Of a stretch of DNA of 44,983 bases, positions 15,299 to 27,793 are shown one piece after another; positions within the stretch are counted from its first letter, which is position 1; each line of letters begins with the position of its first letter. Made by a program: the position numbers and the translations under genes. The DNA comes from Microcystis viridis FACHB-1342 (GTDB lineage Bacteria; Cyanobacteriota; Cyanobacteriia; Cyanobacteriales; Microcystaceae). Under the pieces are notes generated by a model that worked only from the letters and a program-made list of their open reading frames with translations, had not been told where the DNA came from and searched no databases. The stretch spans positions 1-44,983 of the forward strand of contig NZ_JACJSV010000039.1 of NCBI RefSeq assembly GCF_014698335.1, read 5' to 3'.

Positions 15299-16345
15299 TT
15301 AAACTCGATCGCGATGACGTCGATCAGCGATAAAAGACTCCACCAATTTAACATCTTCGACACTACCGATCACTAAAGGTGTGCGGGTGTGTAATTTATC
15401 GGGAACGATATCTAAAAGATTTGTCACCCCATCACTAGCTTTACCTCCTGCCTGTTCAATTAAAAAAGCAAGGGGGGCAGTTTCATAAATTAAGCGCAAT
15501 TTTCCCTGGGGATTTTTAACAGTACCCGGATAGAGAAAAACACCACCCTGCATTAAAATTCGATGGATATCTCCCACTAATGCCCCACTGTAACGGGCCG
15601 TGTAACCATCATGACGGTGGACATAACGGGTATAGTCGCGAATTGCCTCATCCCACTGCCAAAAATTGCCCTCATTGGTACTATAAATCGGGCCATGGTC
15701 GGGGATAATAATATTCTCTTGGGCGAGGATAAATTCCCCTAAACTGGGGTCAAGGACAAAGGCATGAACACCGCGACCGATCGAGTAAACTAAAATAGTC
15801 GAGGGTCCGTAGAGAATATAGCCAGCGGCGATTTGTTTACGACCATTTTGCAGTAAATCTAGGGCTTCTCCGTCTAAATCATTGCCTTCCTGTTGACGGA
15901 TGGCAAAAATCGAACCCACATTTAGGTTAATATCCACATTGGAAGAACCATCGATCGGGTCGTAGAGTAGGGTATAGCGACCGATGGGACAGTTTTCTGG
16001 GATATAATAGGGTTTATCCATTTCCTCGGAAGCAAGACGGCAAACTAAACCACTTTGCTTAAAAACCGAGATAAATACTTCATTGGCAAAAACGTCCATT
16101 TTCTTGACCGATTCCCCTTGGACGTTGGTTTCTCCAGTAAAACCTAGCACATCCGCCATTAATCCCGCTTTACTGAGACGACGGGCAATTAATTTCCCCG
16201 CTAGGGCAATCCGACTCATAATTGCGCTTAAATCCTGCGCGTCGGGGGAAAAGCTTTGTAGTTGTTGCAGGACGTGACGGGAGAGGGTGGTACAATCTCG
16301 ATCGAGGCTATGTTCGGGGATAGAAAAGGGAATATTGCTAACCAT
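15299..16345 (-). CDS. fbp: Class I fructose-1,6-bisphosphatase
   Basis: 348 residues with the class I signature Y-D-P-I-D-G-S-S-N (metal-binding aspartates), E-E near residue 100, and a C-terminal [13 protein letters not shown]. It hydrolyses fructose 1,6-bisphosphate to fructose 6-phosphate in gluconeogenesis. In many cyanobacteria the Calvin-cycle reaction is done mainly by the bifunctional class II enzyme (GlpX type), so this one may be secondary. The length is normal. Confidence 0.94.
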
Positions 16346-17348: not shown

Positions 17349-17432
17349 AAAAAAAATCAACCCATGAACGAACAACGCACCCAATTCTGTCTAAATTATG
17401 ATTTTTTTGATTGTTTGATTGACTAGGATTTT
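17349..17432. repeat. Family H direct repeat, copy 1
   Basis: An ~84-bp sequence (CCCATGAACGAACAACGCACCCAAT, then …GATTGACTAGGATTTT) nearly identical to 18501-18584. Shorter relatives of the GAACAACGCACCCAA core lie at about 18017 and 19600. The 426-bp gap 17209-17634 consists of A/T-rich IS-proximal sequence, this repeat and the family G element. Confidence 0.7.
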
Positions 17433-17578: not shown

Positions 17579-17634
17579 GGATTTTTTTCGGCTATCATCC
17601 CGGTGATACAATTCTGATAATCTCCCCATTCAAT

Positions 17635-17880
17635 CTAAACAGCGCACTCAATTGATTCTTGACGATGACTAATGAGTTCAAAAGTTATCGCTGCTTGAGG
17701 TTCAAGAGTAATTAGATGATTTAGTTGTAATAATTCTGGAATCATCTGTCGTAATTTAGCTGTTAAAGCTGCGATGGTATCAGCTTCGATGACTAATCCC
17801 GGAATATCTTCACTCTCTGCTACCCACACTTGCGCCTCTCGATCCCAAAATGCTTCTACTTGGTACGGTTTTTGATTCAT
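17635..17880 (-). CDS. DUF1902 (HicB-like fold) small protein
   Basis: 81 residues. The pattern Y-Q-V-E-A-F-W-D-R-E-A-Q-V-W-V-A-E-S-E-D-I-P-G-L matches DUF1902, a HicB-like half-antitoxin fold in which a beta strand carrying W…S.D.PG leads into a helix. It resembles a solo antitoxin or regulator; no hicA-like partner is next to it on its own strand. It sits 210 bp upstream of, and divergent from, hicBA. Function is inferred only from the fold family. Confidence 0.75.
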   Translation of the reverse strand: MNQKPYQVEAFWDREAQVWVAESEDIPGLVIEADTIAALTAKLRQMIPELLQLNHLITLEPQAAITFELISHRQESIECAV

Positions 17881-18502: not shown

Positions 18503-18584
18503 AAAAAATTAACCCATGAACGAACAACGCACCCAATCCTGTCTAAATTATGATTTTTTTGATTATTTGATTGACTAGGATTTT
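18501..18584. repeat. Family H direct repeat, copy 2
   Basis: Nearly identical to 17349-17432 and in the same orientation. It starts inside the hicA stop codon and is followed by ATTATCCCTGTGATAGAATTCTGATAATC…, which recurs at about 19451-19496 and in part at 17595-17633. The two H copies bracket the DUF1902-hicBA block, so recombination between them would delete the toxin-antitoxin genes. Confidence 0.7.
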
Positions 18585-18637
18585 TTTTGGATATTATCCC
18601 TGTGATAGAATTCTGATAATCTCCCCATTAAATCCCT

Positions 18638-18769: not shown

Positions 18770-19303
18770 ATGAATGAACCCCAAAAACATCGACAATCTA
18801 TTCGTTTAAAAGGCTATGATTATAGGCTTAATGGAGCTTATTATATAACAATTTGTTCTTATCAGAAGCAGTATTTATTTGGTGAAATTGTTGAAGGAAA
18901 TATGGAGCAGAATTTACTTGGTGATACTGTTGAAGCAGTATGGTATAGACTGCCTCTAAATTTTAAATTTATTGAACTAGATGCTTTTATTGTCATGCCC
19001 AATCATATTCATGGAATTATAGTAATACAAAATTATGATCTGGAAAAGACCGAATACGATTCTCAATATACTCACGGTACAATGCCGGAATCTTTGGGGG
19101 CTATTGTGCAGAATTTCAAATCAATTTCTAGTCGTAAAATTAATCGTTTATGTGGCGATCGCCTGAAAATTTGGCAGCGCAATTATTATGAACATATCAT
19201 TCGCAATGAAAATTCTTATCAAAAAATCCGGCAATACATTCTTGATAATCCGCGAAATTGGGAACAAGACGAGAACAATCTGAATAAATTCAAACCAATG
19301 TAG
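18770..19303 (+). CDS. REP-associated tyrosine transposase (RAYT, Y1/IS200-like)
   Basis: 177 residues. It shows R-L-K-G-Y-D-Y at the start, the HuH metal site H79-x-H81 in M-P-N-H-I-H-G-I, and the nucleophile tyrosine region R-N-Y-Y-E-H-I-I-R-N (Y139 or Y140). These match the RAYT/TnpA_REP branch of Y1 transposases, which nick single-stranded DNA at palindromic REP sequences and are usually not part of an IS. Here the gene is surrounded by three family B palindromes (18638, 19351, 19497), the likely cognate repeats. It looks intact. Confidence 0.9.
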   Translation: MNEPQKHRQSIRLKGYDYRLNGAYYITICSYQKQYLFGEIVEGNMEQNLLGDTVEAVWYRLPLNFKFIELDAFIVMPNHIHGIIVIQNYDLEKTEYDSQYTHGTMPESLGAIVQNFKSISSRKINRLCGDRLKIWQRNYYEHIIRNENSYQKIRQYILDNPRNWEQDENNLNKFKPM

Positions 19304-19422: not shown

Positions 19423-19496
19423 CCCGGGCAATAAACTAATAACCTTCGCCTATTATCCCTGTGATACAATTCTGATAATCTCCCCATTAAATCCCT

Positions 19497-19569: not shown

Positions 19570-19746
19570 CCATCAATTCCCCATCTGCCACGCTATGAAT
19601 GAACAACGCACCCAAACATACCTAAACCTCATTAATCAATTATCATCGTCCTCATTCAATTATGTCCAATTTTTTACGGAATGGCGAATCAAGGTGTTGT
19701 AGTTCTGATAAGTTTCGTGGTTTAGAAGTGATAAGGAGTCTAAATT

Positions 19747-22700
19747 ATGTTTGAACGGTTTACAGAGAAAGCGATTAAGGTAATTATGTTAGCGCAGGAG
19801 GAAGCGCGTCGCTTGGGGCATAATTTTGTAGGAGCGGAGTTTATATTTTTAGGGTTAATCGGTGAAGCATCAGGAGTTGCGTCGCAAGTTTTAAGACAGC
19901 AGGGAATAACGCTAAAAAATGCTCGAATTGAAGTTGAAAAAATTCTAGGAAAGGGTTCAGGAATTAGCCCAGAAATGAATCCTGTAGATATTCCTTTTAC
20001 AGAGTCGGCAAAACTCGTTTTAAACAGTGCATTATCATTTGCTGATAAATTAGGGAGTGAATCTATTGATACAGAGCATTTACTGATTGGGATTTTTCAA
20101 CAAGGGGAAAGTACAGCGATAATTTTACAAAATTTACAGGTTAATCTAAAAGATTTAACTGTTTCTTTGACTCAGTATTTTCAGCAGCAACCCTCTAATC
20201 AGTTACCTCAAACTGTTTATGTTCTGCTTTACAATGTGGGAGCAGATGATGAGGGTATTCATACTATAAGCACAGGCAATAAGGATACAATATTAATATT
20301 TGAGACTCAAGAAGATGCGGCTACTTTCGCACGACGATTAGGGGAGCAGAATTTTCCTGTACCGAGTGTTGAAGCAATAGAATATGAGGATATTTTGGGA
20401 TTTTGTCAGCAACAGGGTGATGATTGGGAATTTGTAGCGCAAGGAACAAATAGAACTCCTCCTTCTCAAAATCAAACGATAAATCAGCAAAATAATTTTG
20501 TAGATCAATCGTCACAAGGATTAACTCTTAATACTGAAATACCTAACCAGCAAGAATATGTAAGATTCTTAATGGAGACATTACGAAAAATTTCTGAAAA
20601 TCCTAATCCTCAAGTTATTTATCCCTTCTGGGCGCAAAATTTGGATAAACTGGATGATAATTTAGCGCGAATTCTAGACAGTTTAGCGAGAAAGACATTA
20701 ACGCAAGCCGCGCAAGAACAAGCCTATGCTTTCGCTGTTGTGGTTATTGGCAATTTCATTAACTTAATCCGACAATTTCCCCTCGGTGACATCGCCGCTC
20801 ACAAAGAAATTGCCATTACGGGTTATGAAATAGCCTTAACTATCTTCACTTTTGAAGCATTTCCCCAAGATTGGGCAATGACACAGAATAATCTCGCTAA
20901 TGCTTACTGTGACAGAATCAGAGGGGAGAAAGCCGAGAATTTGGAAAGGGCAATCGCCGCTTACCAGGAAGCTTTGAAAGTTTATACTTTTGACGAATTT
21001 CCCCAACAATGGTCAGACACACAGAACAATCTCGCCATTGCTTACCGTAACAGAATCAGAGGAGATAAAGCCGAGAATTTAGAAAGATCGATCGCCGCTT
21101 ATCAGGAATCCTTGAAAGTGAGGACTTTTGACGCATTTCCCAAAGCTTACTTAAACCTGATTAATCAGCTATTATCCTGCAATGATGGCGATGAACCTCG
21201 CATTATGCAGGAAAATCAGGAATTGCTGGATGAGGGGTTGGTACAGGTAATGGTAGCCGTAGCGCAACAATACGGGAATGCAGGAAGGGAAAATGAGGCA
21301 CGATGGCTGATATATATAGCGCAACAGTTAGCGGAAGATTTAGAGATATGGTCGGATGAAACAACAGAAAAGGTAAATACCGATCAAGATTATCTAACAT
21401 TTTTTGGAGAGGTATTGCAATTGCTTACTAACGATCCAGATATAAATATCAAAATCATTTATCCTTTTTTTGAAAAAAATTTAGATAAACTAGATGAAAA
21501 CCTAATAGCTGTTCTAGATAATTTTGTAAGAAATATATTATTGCCATCTGCTGACTCGGAAACAGCTAGAACTATTACAGCGTCGATTGTTAACTTTAGT
21601 CGTCTTATTCAAGAGTTTCCTCATGGTGATATTTCTATGAATCAAGAAATTGCCATAGCTGGTAATGAGCTTGTCTTAACAATTGATAATGATCCTATTG
21701 ATCGAGCACTGACACAAAACAATCTTGGGATTGCCTATCGTAACAGAATAAAAGGAGACAAAGCTGAGAATTTAGAAATAGCGATCTCTTTGTATAATGA
21801 AGCATTGAGGATTAGAACCTTTGATGCTTTTCCACAAAACTGGGCAGCGACCCAAAATAATCTGGCTAATGTTTATCGTGAAAGGATTATGGGGGATAAA
21901 GCCGATAATTTAGATAAGGCAATCGCTACCTATACCGAAGTCTTAAAGGTTTATACTTTTGACGCATTTCCCAAACAATGGGCAGAGATACAGAATAATC
22001 TCGCCTTAGCTTATAGTGACAGAATCAGAGGAGAGAAAGCTGAGAATTTAGAAAGAGCGATCGCTACTTACAAAGAAGTTCTCAAAGTTTATACTTTTGA
22101 TAGTTTCCCCGAAAAATGGGCATACATACAAAATCTTTTGGGTGCAACTTATATCGAAAGAATAAAAGGCAATAAGGTGGAAAATTTAGAACAAGCGATT
22201 GCTGCTTGTAATGAAGCTTTGAAAGTTTATACTATTGAGACATTTCCCCAAGATTGGGCAATGACACAAAATCTTCTTGCTCTTGCTTATTCTTACAGGA
22301 TACTGGGAGATAAAGATGATAATATTGAAAAAGCAATCAATACTTATGCAGTAGCTGAACAGGTTATTACGTTTGATACTGATTCTGAATCATGGGCAAT
22401 CATACAAAATAATTTGGGAATTGCTTACTATGAAAGAATCCGAGGTGATAAAGCTGAAAATCTAGAAAAAGCTCTCGAAGTTTATGAAAGCTCACTCAAA
22501 ATCAGAACTTTTGAACAATTTCCTGAATATTGGGCAGATACGCAACATAATCTCGGGAATACTTACCGTCAGAGAATTAAAGGTGATAAAGCTGAAAACA
22601 TCGAAAAATCCATTGAAGCCTATACAAATGCCCTAAAAGTCAGAACTTTTGAAAATTCACCACTTTTGTGGGCAGAAACACGAAATAGTCTCGGTAACGC

Positions 22701-24489
22701 TTACTGCCAAAGAAAGGTAGGCAACAAAGCTGAGAATTTAAAAAAAGCAATCACACTTTTTACCGATGCCTTAAAAATTTGGACAAACGAAAATAATTTG
22801 TTCAGTTGTTTAATGGTTGCTAGTAATTTAGCTAACTTATACTATAATGAAGAACAATGGCAACCTGCCACAGAAGCCTATCATATCGCCATTGAAGCCG
22901 TCGAAAATGCTCGCTTAGAGGCACTTAACCCCCGCAGTCGTGAACAAACCCTCTCTCATGCCATTGGTGTTTTCCATCGCATTGTGCAAGCATATCTTAA
23001 TTTCAATCAGCCTGAGAAGGCATTAGAATATATCGAACGCAGTAAAGGGCGTAATCTGGTGGAATTAATCACCCAGAAAAACCTAAATCCCCAAGGGGTT
23101 AGTCAAGAAATCATCGCCCAATTAAATGAATTAAAACAACGAGTTTTTAATGAAAAAATTCGCTTACACCATCAAAGCATTAACCAAAATTTAATGCGTA
23201 GTGATAACTTAACTCCTTACGTTCCAGATCACAGTTATCTGAAAGAATATCAACAAGACTTAGATAATTTTATTGCAAGAGAAATTAAAGATCCTCTCTT
23301 TAGCCTCACTCAAAAAGTTGAGCCGATCCCATTTACAGAGATTCAGGCTTTAACTGATGCTGAAACTTGTCTGCTGCAATGGTACATTACAGGGGAGAAA
23401 ATACTCGCTTTTGTGGTGTCTGCTGAGGGAGAGGTTAAAGTTTGGCAATCTTCCGAGGATGATGTAAAGCAATTATTTGATACAATCAACAATTATCTAC
23501 AGCTTTACTACTCCAAAAATGGCAAACAAGAATGGAGAAATCAACTGTCTAACCTCCTACAGACTTTTGCTGAAACTCTGCATATTAATGATATTTTTGC
23601 CCTGATTCCCGATACTTGTCAACGCTTAATTATTATTCCCCATGTGTATCTGCATATTCTCCCTATTCACGCTTTCCCGATTAACAAAAACCAAATTTTA
23701 CAGGATAAGTATGATGTACAATATGCCCCTAGTTGTCAAATCTTGCAAAAAATCTCCCAAACTTCTCACCATTCCGACTTTAATAAACTGTTCGCTATTC
23801 AAAACCCCACTAAAGACTTATCTTACACTGACTTAGAAGTTAATATCCTCTCAACTTTCTTTACTGAACCTCAAGTTATCGCCCAAGATAACGCCACTAA
23901 AAACGCTGTTCTTCCCCATCTCAAATCCTCAGATAACCACTGTTATCACTTCTCCTGTCATGGAAGCTTTAACCCAGCTAATCCCCTTGAATCCGCCTTA
24001 TTCTTAGCCAATAAAGAACCCCTAACATTAGGCGAAATCTTTGAACTGCGCTTGAATAAATGTCGCCTTGTCACCCTTTCTGCCTGCGAAACTGGCTTAA
24101 TTGATTTAAACTCTATCAGCGATGAATATATCGGTTTACCCAGTGGTTTTCTGTTTGCAGGAAGTCCCAGCGTTGTCAGTAGTTTATGGACAGTTAATGA
24201 TTTATCAACCTCCTTCTTGATGATTAAATTATATGAGATTTTATTTAATGAGAATCAGCAAGTTTCTGTACCAGTTGCTTTGAAAATGGCACAAAATTGG
24301 TTGAAGAATTTGACAAGTGAACAATTTATTTTAGAAGCTGATTCAATGATAGATAAGCTCTGTCATGATAAGCCAAGAACAGCTAAATCTTATAAAGAAT
24401 CAGCCCGTCAATTATTAGTACAAAATCCTGAAGAATATCCCTTAAAAAATCCCTTCTATTGGGCTGCATTCATAGCATCTGGACAATAG
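19747..24489 (+). CDS. Giant Clp_N-DUF3110-TPR-CHAT protein (caspase-like protease candidate)
   Basis: 1580 residues; the start is set by AAGGAG at 19733-19738. Domains in order: a double ClpC-type N-domain (1-145, E-R-F-T-E-K-A start), with no AAA+ ATPase after it; a DUF3110-like domain (156-234, V-Y-V-L-L-Y-N…E-G-I-H); a Q/N-rich linker; two related helical modules (about 272-400 and 555-680), each leading into ~50-residue TPRs (F-P-Q-x-W-A-x-T-Q-N-N-L-A-x-A-Y, then G-D-K-A-E-N-L-E); and a C-terminal CHAT domain with catalytic H1405 (C-H-G) and C1447 (S-A-C-E-T-G). CHAT proteins are separase/caspase-like cysteine peptidases, often in defence or cell death. ClpC N-domains bind adaptors or phospho-arginine substrates. 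Function is inferred. Confidence 0.88.
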   Translation: MFERFTEKAIKVIMLAQEEARRLGHNFVGAEFIFLGLIGEASGVASQVLRQQGITLKNARIEVEKILGKGSGISPEMNPVDIPFTESAKLVLNSALSFADKLGSESIDTEHLLIGIFQQGESTAIILQNLQVNLKDLTVSLTQYFQQQPSNQLPQTVYVLLYNVGADDEGIHTISTGNKDTILIFETQEDAATFARRLGEQNFPVPSVEAIEYEDILGFCQQQGDDWEFVAQGTNRTPPSQNQTINQQNNFVDQSSQGLTLNTEIPNQQEYVRFLMETLRKISENPNPQVIYPFWAQNLDKLDDNLARILDSLARKTLTQAAQEQAYAFAVVVIGNFINLIRQFPLGDIAAHKEIAITGYEIALTIFTFEAFPQDWAMTQNNLANAYCDRIRGEKAENLERAIAAYQEALKVYTFDEFPQQWSDTQNNLAIAYRNRIRGDKAENLERSIAAYQESLKVRTFDAFPKAYLNLINQLLSCNDGDEPRIMQENQELLDEGLVQVMVAVAQQYGNAGRENEARWLIYIAQQLAEDLEIWSDETTEKVNTDQDYLTFFGEVLQLLTNDPDINIKIIYPFFEKNLDKLDENLIAVLDNFVRNILLPSADSETARTITASIVNFSRLIQEFPHGDISMNQEIAIAGNELVLTIDNDPIDRALTQNNLGIAYRNRIKGDKAENLEIAISLYNEALRIRTFDAFPQNWAATQNNLANVYRERIMGDKADNLDKAIATYTEVLKVYTFDAFPKQWAEIQNNLALAYSDRIRGEKAENLERAIATYKEVLKVYTFDSFPEKWAYIQNLLGATYIERIKGNKVENLEQAIAACNEALKVYTIETFPQDWAMTQNLLALAYSYRILGDKDDNIEKAINTYAVAEQVITFDTDSESWAIIQNNLGIAYYERIRGDKAENLEKALEVYESSLKIRTFEQFPEYWADTQHNLGNTYRQRIKGDKAENIEKSIEAYTNALKVRTFENSPLLWAETRNSLGNAYCQRKVGNKAENLKKAITLFTDALKIWTNENNLFSCLMVASNLANLYYNEEQWQPATEAYHIAIEAVENARLEALNPRSREQTLSHAIGVFHRIVQAYLNFNQPEKALEYIERSKGRNLVELITQKNLNPQGVSQEIIAQLNELKQRVFNEKIRLHHQSINQNLMRSDNLTPYVPDHSYLKEYQQDLDNFIAREIKDPLFSLTQKVEPIPFTEIQALTDAETCLLQWYITGEKILAFVVSAEGEVKVWQSSEDDVKQLFDTINNYLQLYYSKNGKQEWRNQLSNLLQTFAETLHINDIFALIPDTCQRLIIIPHVYLHILPIHAFPINKNQILQDKYDVQYAPSCQILQKISQTSHHSDFNKLFAIQNPTKDLSYTDLEVNILSTFFTEPQVIAQDNATKNAVLPHLKSSDNHCYHFSCHGSFNPANPLESALFLANKEPLTLGEIFELRLNKCRLVTLSACETGLIDLNSISDEYIGLPSGFLFAGSPSVVSSLWTVNDLSTSFLMIKLYEILFNENQQVSVPVALKMAQNWLKNLTSEQFILEADSMIDKLCHDKPRTAKSYKESARQLLVQNPEEYPLKNPFYWAAFIASGQ

Positions 24490-24491
24490 AA

Positions 24492-24878
24492 TTAAGCATT
24501 AAATTGACACCATTGTTTGATCCCCTTTTTCGCCAAATAAATAACAACAGAAGTTGCTACTGATATTGGGATTTGTCCCCCCGCCGCTAACGTTGCTACT
24601 GCTACAGTTAGTAAATCTTTCATGAGATCATTTATAAAATCATCATCACACACAATAGAACGGCATTTTTTAGCTAATTTATCTAGAATATTATCTTCTT
24701 CCCCTGCTCTAGTAGGAATCTTCACACCTGTTTCCATTGCCAATAAACCAGCAGATTTAATTAAATCGCCGTCTGTTTCTGCAATTAAGTCTAAAGCATC
24801 CAAAGCTTCAGGATAATCCTTAAATTGCTGCCGATAGTGTTGTATTTCTTCCGGTGTTAACTGAGTTGTATTGTCCAT
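24492..24878 (-). CDS. Small protein with Gly/Ala/Val-rich hydrophobic C-terminus; possible partner of the CHAT protein
   Basis: 128 residues from ATG 24878. An upstream ATG at 24914 lies before the predicted transcript start, so it is rejected. The N-terminal module (L-T-P-E-E-I-x-x-Y-R…A-L-D-x-I-A-E-T-D-G-D-L) is shared with the 50-residue neighbour. The C-terminus (about 80-122) is hydrophobic and Gly/Ala/Val-rich (L-L-T-V-A-V-A-T-L-A-A-G-G…V-V-I-Y-L-A-K-K-G), suggesting a membrane-active or bundle-forming helix. The gene converges on the CHAT gene with only 2 bp between stops. Family not recognised; a role as CHAT substrate or regulator is a guess. Confidence 0.7.
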   Translation of the reverse strand: MDNTTQLTPEEIQHYRQQFKDYPEALDALDLIAETDGDLIKSAGLLAMETGVKIPTRAGEEDNILDKLAKKCRSIVCDDDFINDLMKDLLTVAVATLAAGGQIPISVATSVVIYLAKKGIKQWCQFNA

Positions 24879-24916
24879 AGTGCTATTGTTAAAACTAAAA
24901 CTAATTTTCTCCATCC

Positions 24917-24944: not shown

Positions 24945-25093
24945 GTGCAAAAACCTGCGGGTACAGCATCCTCAAGATAACCTTCGCATTCTTCAATCGC
25001 ATCCAAAGCAGCGATCGCACTTAGATTATCTGCCAATTCAGCGCGAAACTGGGCAATTTCTTCAGGAGTAACTTTAGTTGATTCAATATCCAT
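24941..25093 (-). CDS. 50-residue truncated paralogue of the neighbouring small protein
   Basis: A short frame, ATG 25093 to TGA 24941. It reads M-D-I-E-S-T-K-V-T-P-E-E-I-A-Q-F-R…A-A-L-D-A-I-E-E-C-E-G-Y-L-E-D-A, aligning with the first ~45 residues of the 24492-24878 product (T-P-E-E-I, R, A-L-D-x-I, E, G-x-L). The hydrophobic C-terminal half is absent. It is either a stand-alone domain, perhaps an antidote-like short form, or a remnant of tandem duplication. Same strand and order as the larger gene. Confidence 0.55.
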   Translation of the reverse strand: MDIESTKVTPEEIAQFRAELADNLSAIAALDAIEECEGYLEDAVPAGFCT

Positions 25094-25240: not shown

Positions 25241-27793
25241 TTAAACCACGACAAAATTAACTAATTTGCCCGGGACAACAATCACTTTTTTGATTTCCTT
25301 ACCCTCTAAATAACGTTGGGCGATTTCTGATTCCAGGGCGAGGGTTTCTAGGGTGCTTTTATCGGCACTAGCGGGAACTTGTATCGTGCCTCTGGTTTTT
25401 CCCAAAATTTGGATGACAAGGGTAATCTCGTCCACAATAAGGGCAGTGGGATCAACTTTTGGCCAGGGTTGCAGGTGAATTGATTGGCTATGACCTAAAG
25501 CTTGCCATAATTCTTCGCTAAGATGGGGAGCAAAGAGGGAAAGTAAGATTAATAGGGTTTCGATTCCTTCCCGATAAATGGGGGATGCAAAACACTTATT
25601 ATCCCCTAAAGCGTTACTGAGTTTCATCAATTCGGAAATGGCGGTATTAAATTGATAATCTCCTTCTAAATCCTCGGAGATTTCTTTAATAGCGGTGTGA
25701 ATTGCCCGTCTTAAATCCTTGTCAGTTTTCGAGAAAGTTTCTATTTTTTTGACTTGCTTGGGTTTATTTTCAATATATTCGCTGACTAAACGCCACACCC
25801 GATTAAGAAAGCGAAATTGTCCTTCTACCCCCGCATCATCCCACTGTAAATCTTTTTCTGGGGGTGCGGTAAAAAGTATAAACATTCGGGCAGTATCGGC
25901 CCCATATTTTTCCAGGACTTTCAGAGGATCAACGCCGTTATATTTCGACTTAGACATTTTTTCAAAGAAGAAAGATAGAACTTCTCCCGTGTCTTTATCG
26001 CAATATTTATCCTCTTGATAGATAACATTTTCTGCGGGGACATATTTGCCAGTTTCGGGATTTTTGTAGGTTAATCCCTGTACCATTCCCTGGGTTAATA
26101 GACGGTTAAAAGGTTCATCGACATTAACTAAACCTCGGTCTCTTAAAACTTTGGTAAAGAAACGAGAATAGAGTAAATGTAGGATAGCGTGTTCGATTCC
26201 TCCGACGTATTGATCCACGGGCATCCAATCATTAACCTTCTCGAATTGAAAGGGTATATCTTCATTTTTAGCATCGGTATAACGGAGGAAATACCAACTA
26301 GAATCGATGAAAGTATCCATAGTGTCCGTTTCCCGTTTTGCGGGAGTGCCACAGCGAGGACAATCCACATTTACCCAGTCTTCTAATTTGGCTAAAGGGG
26401 AAGCACCTCGACCGCTAAATTCGACATTTTCCGGTAAAGTAACGGGTAAATTATCGATAGGTACTGGCACGGTTCCACAGTTAGGACAGTGGATAACTGG
26501 AATCGGACAACCCCAATATCTTTGACGGGAAATTAACCAATCCCGGAGGCGATATTGTATTCTAGCTTTGCCGTAACCTTGGGCAGTGGCATAATCAATA
26601 ATAGCGGTTTTTCCTGCTGTAGAATGCAACCCATTAAATTGAGCGGAATTAATCATAATTCCCGCTTCTGTGTAGGCCTCTTTTAACTCAATTTCGCCAC
26701 TTTCTGGAGTAATAACTATCTTAATTGGCAGATTATTTTCCTGAGCGAATTTAAAATCGCGACTGTCGTGAGCCGGGACTCCCATCACTGCCCCTGTCCC
26801 GTATTCGTAGAGGACATAATCAGCAATTAAAATCGGAATTTCTTCACCGGTAAAAGGATTAATTGCCACTCCTCCGGTTTTAATACCGCGTTTGGGTTTA
26901 TCTTCGGCAGTTCTTTCTAATTCGCTTTCGCTGGCTATCTCTTGAATAAAAGTTTCTACGGCCGATTTTTGTTCGGGAGTGGTAACTTGTAAAGTTAAGG
27001 GATGTTCGGGAGCAAGTACCACATAAGTGACTCCATAAACCGTATCGGGACGAGTGGTAAAAACAGCAATTTTTTCTGGGGAATTAACAAGAGGAAATTC
27101 TAAATAAGCACCTACCGATTTACCAATCCAGTTGGCCTGCATGGTTTTAACCCGTTCTGGCCAACCGGTAAGTTTATCTAAATCAGTGAGTAATTGTTCG
27201 GCATAATCGGTGATTTTTAGGAACCATTGCCGGAGTAATTTTCTTTCTACTTTAGCACCCGATCGCCAAGATTTTCCTTCACTATCTACCTGTTCATTGG
27301 CCAAGACAGTTTGATCGATAGGATCCCAATTCACTGCCGCTTCTTTTTGGTAGGCTAATCCCGATTCAAAAAACTGTAAAAATAGCCATTGGGTCCAACG
27401 ATAATATTCCGGGGAACAGGTGGCAACTTCTCTTTCCCAATCGATAGATAATCCTAACTGTTGTAATTGCCGTTTCATCTGGGCAATATTTTGATCAGTC
27501 CATTTTGCCGGAGGAACTCCTCTTTCAATGGCGGCATTTTCTGCGGGTAATCCGAAAGCATCCCACCCCATGGGATGCAGCACGCGATAACCCTGCATTC
27601 TTTTCAGACGGGCAATCACATCGGTGATAGTATAGTTACGAACGTGACCCATGTGCAGGTTGCCTGATGGATAGGGGAACATGGAGAGGGCGTAAAATTT
27701 CGGTTTATCGGCGTTTTCTGGGGTTTTGTCCAATCCCATTTGCTGCCAAATCTTCTGCCATTTCTGTTCGATTTCTGCGGGGTTGTACGGCAC
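25241..27793 (-). CDS. leuS: Leucyl-tRNA synthetase
   Basis: 850 residues, the normal bacterial LeuRS length. The class I signatures are HIGH-type H47-M-G-H50 and K612-M-S-K-S616. The zinc/CP1 editing region in the middle (about 220-400, with the T-T-R-P-D-T and D-S-R-D motifs) indicates intact proofreading. It charges tRNA-Leu with leucine in the cytoplasm. It is transcribed alone, with the start preceded by an A/T-rich leader on the minus strand. Confidence 0.97.

Follow-up and report, generated by a model that had tools for sequence, protein, structure and literature searches.

What switches on a caspase-like CHAT protease in a bloom-forming cyanobacterium, and what does it cut once it is active? 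TPR-CHAT proteins are common in cyanobacteria and, to our knowledge, few of them have a known trigger or substrate. We analysed a stretch of 44,983 nucleotides from Microcystis viridis FACHB-1342 (contig NZ_JACJSV010000039.1, positions 1 to 44,983; hereafter the window, meaning the whole stretch), in which an open reading frame (ORF) running from an ATG at 19747 to a stop codon ending at 24489 on the forward strand encodes such a protein, with a head resembling the N-domain of ClpC at one end and a small convergent gene, its partner, at the other. The locus offers a candidate trigger side, the head, whose ligands can be guessed from ClpC, and next to the catalytic end a partner that is matched to it genetically; the question of how the protease is activated and what it targets becomes directly testable. 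TPR-CHAT proteases are already known; the Clp_N-DUF3110 head and the pairing with a partner appear to be new, neither the architecture nor the partner having been found in the open-licence papers searched. With its ClpC-derived head and exchangeable tail-partner pair, this Microcystis protease has the look of a switch built from modules and used in cell death or defence; the tail-partner pairing is the most solid new point and the reading of the head as a decoy the boldest. The features of the gene are as follows.

19747..24489, + strand: Clp_N-Clp_N-DUF3110-TPR-CHAT protein, 1580 aa (ORF, Pfam)
19747..20187, + strand: double Clp_N head, residues 1-147, a diverged copy of the ClpC N-domain (Pfam, model, alignment)
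20215..20463, + strand: DUF3110 domain, residues 157-239 (Pfam E 1.6e-27; modelled as beta-beta-beta-alpha-beta-alpha-beta)
20521..22900, + strand: TPR scaffold of 46-aa units, borders approximate (sequence, Pfam)
23608..24486, + strand: CHAT protease domain, residues 1288-1580 (Pfam; Csx29 alignment)
23959..23961, + strand: codon of H1405 (HFSCHG), predicted catalytic His (Csx29-type alignment)
24085..24087, + strand: codon of C1447 (LSACETG), predicted catalytic Cys (Csx29-type alignment)
24307..24450, + strand: variable CHAT tail, residues 1521-1568, covarying with the partner (pair comparison)

A Pfam search of the window protein returned two Clp_N stretches (E 7.5e-21), DUF3110 (PF11360; 96 bits against a curated cut-off of 20.2), TPR families in the middle (TPR_10, E 2e-32; TPR_12, E 7.7e-16) and CHAT (PF12770; E 1.1e-47, 163 bits against a cut-off of 24), all above the Pfam cut-offs. 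The double N-domain of ClpC/Hsp100 unfoldases is present, but not their AAA+ modules: no AAA family appears among the 19 Pfam rows. By eye, the TPR scaffold consists of two consecutive blocks, each opening with an NLDKLD-type helical segment. In an alignment with Csx29-type chains, H1405 falls in the CHG motif and C1447 in the ACET motif. The two are spaced by 42 residues (43 in Csx29) and are invariant in four aligned rows, the window protein and three relatives; they are the predicted catalytic dyad of the CHAT domain. The NCBIfam Csx29 model NF041237 scored 102.4 bits on the window protein against a cut-off of 300. The window protein is a CHAT family member that is neither Csx29, because this cut-off is missed, nor ClpC, because the AAA module is absent. 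An original prediction from the sequence alone had described the same double Clp_N, DUF3110, TPR arrays and CHAT domain with His-Cys motifs and no AAA+ module, and Pfam and the Csx29-type alignment bear it out without correction. It had also proposed a domain search, structure prediction and a genome survey: the first matched Clp_N, DUF3110 and CHAT above cut-offs, the second, for the head part, gave a ClpC N-domain fold and a DUF3110 fold, and the third found the same architecture in other Microcystis genomes and in one other genus, and a partner gene as neighbour at 10 of 17 related CHAT loci. It had overlooked the partner, the fact that partner and CHAT tail are exchanged jointly, and how far the head has diverged from ClpC.

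The CHAT tail and its convergent partner

Two features lie at the 3' end of the gene.

24492..24914, − strand: small partner gene, 140 aa, tail-to-tail with the CHAT gene, 2 nt apart (ORF, homologues, model)
24959..25093, − strand: stump comprising the first 45 codons of a displaced partner of a different type (95.6% identity with the partner in genome G006)

Protein identities were compared across 22 CHAT-partner pairs, a set with some internal dependence, since G132 and G265 are almost copies of each other and one genus supplies several pairs. Partner identity followed that of the CHAT core (residues 1340-1520) with r=0.49 and, more closely, that of the CHAT tail (residues 1521-1568) with r=0.77. 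Given the core, the partial correlation between tail and partner was 0.68, a value reached in none of 2000 label permutations; given the tail, that between core and partner was 0.06. Missing or broken CHAT ends (L028/L195, L198, L215) and duplicates of the same place were left out of these pairs, and some of the included ORFs are cut or shortened (L209, for example). The contrast is sharpest in single comparisons: the window protein and its relative in G006 share 96% identity in the core, 30% in the tail and 31% in the partner, and the corresponding values for G010 are 93%, 24% and 28%. The stump of G006 type lies beyond the present partner; therefore the tail and partner of a G006-like CHAT gene were most likely replaced together by those of another type, as judged from these sequences. 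Stumps 5' of the partner were found in 4 of the 18 pairs checked, namely in the window, in G005, where the stump has the same end and a somewhat different sequence, and at both loci of G016 (19 residues only). Joint replacement of the specificity parts of adjacent genes is the pattern of toxin-antitoxin-like or polymorphic pairs, with linkage through adjacency as another possible cause.

Homologues place the start of the partner at 24875, giving 127 aa, and the first 13 modelled residues are disordered. The model is all-helical (predicted local distance difference test score, pLDDT, 86), and no convincing relative was found among the solved structures searched. At 10 of 17 related loci with a complete CHAT end a convergent partner lies within 700 nt (loci taken from L001-L034, the best matches of P0001; convergent orientation was a condition of the count, and five ORFs with partial CHAT matches were excluded); L028 has a broken partner farther off and the other six have none. 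Among the 30 best-scoring loci of a partner profile, for which no orientation was set, 19 carry a CHAT ORF, always on the opposite strand and tail-to-tail, and the remaining 11 have no CHAT ORF in about 3.4 kb. The two genes overlap by 4 nt in 12 of the 22 pairs. Such a pair is also present on a plasmid of Nostoc linckia NIES-25. Counting members with and without CHAT, 217 of the order's 291 genomes contain the partner family; a search of 50,697 phage records gave no relative at E 0.01. Relatives about 125 aa long whose surroundings, as far as covered, show no CHAT ORF were seen at L204, L205, L207, L210-L212, L214 and L216-L219; a stand-alone paralogue of the partner seems widespread in cyanobacteria.

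The partner could be cut by the protease or could restrain it. As an antitoxin-like inhibitor it would clamp the CHAT tail and keep the protease off, being swapped like the members of polymorphic toxin-immunity pairs; this account is compatible with either reading of the head discussed below, and we regard it as a distinct, if minority, possibility. It is favoured by the joint exchange of the tail with a complete partner gene that left a displaced stump behind, and by partner stumps lying without a complete CHAT gene in four other Microcystis genomes at the flank of the gene at 25241-27793 (presumably leuS, named by eye). The same covariation is expected of a substrate, however, and in Csx29, the closest characterised relative, the part of CHAT that follows the catalytic Cys is described as holding the substrate (PMC10028731). 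We prefer the substrate, although an inhibitor would explain these data almost equally well.

Origin and divergence of the head

Among solved structures, plant ClpC1 matches the N-terminus best (overall E 1.1e-41, with the best stretch at residues 1-94). In the predicted structure (mean pLDDT 78.8; predicted template modelling score 0.57) the head adopts the eight-helix fold of a ClpC N-domain, with 5gui as the best Foldseek match (E 3.5e-14, 56% identity). The first 29 residues of the window head are identical to those of ClpC from the same genome. Fused heads are 57-61% identical to the ClpC of the window genome, whereas ten cyanobacterial ClpC N-domains, that one included, are 94-100% identical among themselves, the nine foreign ones having been chosen by likeness to the head and being biased toward well-conserved examples. 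On these alignments the head is a diverged copy of the ClpC N-domain. Capture of the clpC promoter along with the head was rejected: the likeness to the own clpC starts at the ATG and the leader differs.

In a tree of 27 Clp_N sequences, 10 of whose 22 inner branches are weak, the Microcystis-type heads form one clade (100/100), and the heads of two other CHAT proteins, in G495 and G440, pair with that of a kinase (99/97). More than one capture of Clp_N by CHAT proteins is likely on this tree, although not proven. In G006, a core 96% identical to that of the window protein carries a different N-terminus with a hydrophobic start and neither Clp_N nor DUF3110, so heads are exchangeable too.

Clp_N without a ClpC body was also seen fused to Ser/Thr kinases (G582, G530). 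Such kinase fusions, together with six Clp_N-AAA stretches, occur in other cyanobacteria (loci L185:5608-7806, L188:3469-5619 and L182:3927-6638). Of nine Clp_N stretches examined, the proteins of eight were scanned with Pfam; L186 (G122) has Clp_N and nothing else, and the ninth, L189, looks like a broken ClpC from its ORF list.

A sample of 386 genomes from across the phylum contained PF11360 in 185 of them, for the most part in short frames. At E 0.01 the host DUF3110 protein has matches in 269 phage records, none reaching 80% coverage of the query, with organism names of Synechococcus (205), Cyanophage (42), Prochlorococcus (16) and Marine (6) phages. The fused domain is 40% identical to the host DUF3110 and 23-30% identical to the phage copies (22 records, E 2e-3 to 0.7); because it is closer to the former, it is more likely a host copy, and a phage origin was rejected. 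In phage S-SRM01, the DUF3110 gene (L222:4007-4276) sits between genes for a recombinase and a recombination endonuclease. A second large DUF3110 protein of the window genome (1130 aa, L044:5785-12087, G000:C107) is encoded directly behind an AAA/NACHT-like ORF and a beta-propeller/APAF1_C-like ORF, which overlap in different frames, as in a split or broken STAND-type locus.

The ratio of non-synonymous to synonymous substitution rates (dN/dS) of the head was calculated for ten pairs; nine gave 0.47-0.67 and the other, G000-G010, gave 1.28 on few changes, compared with 0.17-0.27 for the CHAT core and 0.21-0.44 for the partner within its types. Since relatives keep the domain order and show these values, the window ORF is no accident of gene calling. 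Decay of an accessory gene without current function would agree with the values of the head and with a broken copy in G004, but we hold it to be very improbable in view of the constraint on core and partner and of catalytic motifs that are invariant in the window protein and three relatives.

Distribution, sites and mobility

The same domain order was found in 4 of 12 Microcystis species genomes, broken in a fifth (G004), and in one other genus. Full-length relatives have 1621 aa in G005, 1346 aa in G003 and 1493 aa in G020, the last outside Microcystis, and in G010 the order is split over two contig ends. Clp_N and DUF3110 occur in one stretch in at least 6 of 388 genomes of the order (the window genome, G003, G004, G005, G010 and G020); this survey scored up to six candidates per genome, and the Clp_N fusions named here are examples and no census. 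The neighbouring ORFs define at least three chromosomal surroundings within Microcystis. Two features precede the gene in the window.

19642..19746, + strand: leader of about 105 nt before the ATG, common to relatives at other chromosomal sites (blastn, alignment)
18770..19303, + strand: Y1 transposase upstream, a probable mobility context (Pfam Y1_Tnp E 1.5e-5)

The blastn matches of L035, L036, L039 and L041 share a left border at 19642, and the leader is common to five loci. Because the surroundings differ while this leader is common, the unit moves or recombines as one piece. Beside the transposase, just upstream of the gene, lie full or partial copies of a 126-nt repeat (17359-17432, 17579-17635, 18511-18636 and 19451-19495), with a weaker copy on C135, the contig of a second CHAT locus. 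A small helical-looking module of about 70 aa (Y-NLI-QLL-C-GEE pattern, by eye) was seen inside TPR-CHAT proteins or as a small gene just before them (L042:10583-11044, L183:6783-7160, L181 N-terminus).

The gene at 15299-16345 and leuS do not flank a fixed insertion site, since the two are far apart elsewhere: 163 kb to 2.0 Mb in the one- or two-contig Microcystis genomes G002, G004, G007 and G008, and on different contigs in seven draft Microcystis genomes. Hence solely the leuS flank was compared with 11 other Microcystis genomes, 10 of them usable (G003 gives 568 nt). Partner stumps occupy this 3' flank in 4 of the 10 (G004, G007, G008 and G010), and an ORF for a PLD-helicase in 3 (G001, where it is split, G007 and G011); G002, G005, G006 and G009 show neither. 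The G011 helicase (L229:5932-8754), the sole copy scanned, resembles the PADLOC HKD+Snf2 model (E 6e-21). The leuS 3' flank is a turnover spot.

The distribution bears on two regulatory explanations. A protease that acts in division or differentiation, with the head as a localisation domain only, has its model in HetF, a cyanobacterial CHAT-TPR protein in the divisome (PMC8406250); we judge it improbable for a gene of which just 4 of the 12 Microcystis species genomes have an intact copy, and which stands at different sites and exchanges its partner. The main rival is a host stress signal via NblA or ClpS: the head would read Clp adaptors, degrons or tagged proteins under stress, such as ClpS/NblA in nutrient starvation, and CHAT would adjust phycobilisome breakdown or programmed death in blooms, with no phage involved. 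Consistent with this endogenous proteostasis sensor, the head retains the ClpC fold and exactly the first 29 residues of its own ClpC, and NblA and ClpS are known cyanobacterial ClpC adaptors (PMC7966870). In addition, the CHAT gene MAE 55030 of Microcystis aeruginosa is reported to rise about 9-fold when N and P are low and 17- to 25-fold when organic matter is supplied (PMC3720943), although it need not be the gene of the window or a close relative. The patchy presence in at least 6 of 388 genomes (one copy broken), the differing sites, the divergence of the head and the turnover of the partner are unlike a housekeeping regulator, however, and leave this explanation rather doubtful.

A proposed switch and its known counterparts

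We propose, with about an even chance of being right, that the locus encodes a modular, self-contained TPR-CHAT protease switch. The head, a ClpC N-domain copy joined to DUF3110, would serve as bait or sensor for a cellular binder of ClpC and/or DUF3110 proteins; the TPR scaffold would relay the binding event to the CHAT domain, whose variable tail would grip the cognate small helical partner. Engagement of the head would set the CHAT active site, and the partner would be cut as substrate or, were it an inhibitor, released so that other targets could be cut. The outcome would most likely be growth arrest or death of the infected or severely stressed cell. The roles of the tail as partner holder and of head and TPR as activation control are drawn by analogy with Csx29.

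The original prediction had the head sense stress-tagged, possibly phospho-arginine-marked, proteins and gate the CHAT protease. Given Clp_N and DUF3110 without an ATPase next to CHAT catalytic motifs, the best reading is still that the head senses or docks something and thereby gates the protease; phospho-arginine as its ligand is unsupported. The arginine-kinase family PF00217 gave no match in the window genome, and none in 14 control genomes either. In the alignment, both Clp_N repeats keep the glutamates (E31, E110) that we take to be among the phospho-arginine-contacting residues of ClpC, which leaves such binding by the head conceivable. A linked partner that is exchanged along with the tail, and a head that has moved away from ClpC, fit a polymorphic conflict-type system better than a stress sensor with a housekeeping role, although they fall short of proof.

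In its boldest form the switch would be an integrated-decoy receptor, in which diverged copies of the cell's own ClpC and DUF3110, both possibly used by cyanophages, are fused to a caspase-like executioner, its tail and small partner exchanged as matched sets, that fires when a phage factor binds the bait; we offer this as a tentative and rather unlikely proposal. The bait reading draws on three points: the known ClpC adaptors of cyanobacteria include NblA besides ClpS1/S2 (PMC7966870); the Microcystis phage Ma-LMM01 carries its own nblA, the transcript of which is reported to reach about twenty-fold the level of the host's in infection (PMC4103541); and mycobacterial ClpC2, discussed below, sets a precedent. 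CHAT is, moreover, counted among the effector domains of bacterial defence systems (PMC10907252).

Several findings weigh against the switch and its decoy form. Tail and partner are adjacent, so linkage alone would exchange both together. The partner is not obligatory for TPR-CHAT proteins at large (6 of the 17 loci lack it and one has it broken), is not seen beside the Clp_N-CHAT proteins of G495, G440 and G616 in the stretches examined, and belongs to a widespread family with CHAT-less members that may have another role. The 269 phage records with DUF3110 include none whose organism name is that of a Microcystis phage. PADLOC-DB 2.0.0 gave the window protein only a Cas11d row (E 0.076, in the TPR part) and the partner none at E 0.001. 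TPR-CHAT proteins serve development and division too, as HetF does (PMC8406250).

The proposed switch most resembles Csx29, the Craspase protease of type III-E CRISPR systems, in combining TPR and CHAT, in its His and Cys motifs and in a dedicated partner encoded nearby. The catalytic residues of Csx29 are given as H615 and C658; its activation sets the active site at a distance, and three CHAT residues C-terminal to the catalytic Cys, Y706, W720 and A723, hold the substrate Csx30 whether the protease is active or inactive (PMC10028731). The two tails are compared here through this description of substrate-holding residues. In contrast to Csx29, the window protein has a Clp_N-DUF3110 head, its partner is a convergent helical protein of 127-140 aa, and no CRISPR effector is known for it (no search was aimed at Cas7-11). 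HetF shares CHAT, TPR and a cyanobacterial host, but is described with CHAT at the N-terminus, a transmembrane domain and a role in division (PMC8406250). For the head, the closest precedent is mycobacterial ClpC2, a partial ClpC homologue that competes for and senses a ligand of the ClpC1 N-domain and, unlike the window protein, is not described in the cited passages as joined to a protease (PMC10030653); a review calls it a decoy (PMC13192320).

Clp_N has been joined to caspase-like proteases elsewhere, being reported in 2 of 473 cyanobacterial orthocaspases (PMC8283722). An example of this combination is the G370 protein (L187:4464-6137), a C14 rather than a CHAT protease, with no TPR or DUF3110 and no partner in the stretch examined; its double Clp_N stands at the C-terminus, the mirror image of the window arrangement. 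The proteins of G495, G440 and G616 (2551 aa in G616) come nearer in combining Clp_N with TPR-CHAT, but lack DUF3110 and, as noted, a neighbouring partner, and their heads group apart from the Microcystis heads. Beyond bacteria, plant immune receptors with integrated decoy domains are the counterpart of the proposed decoy receptor. The locus suggests that baits made from copies of the cell's own proteins may be in use among bacteria as well, and the partner family provides a new handle on CHAT proteases in bloom-forming species.
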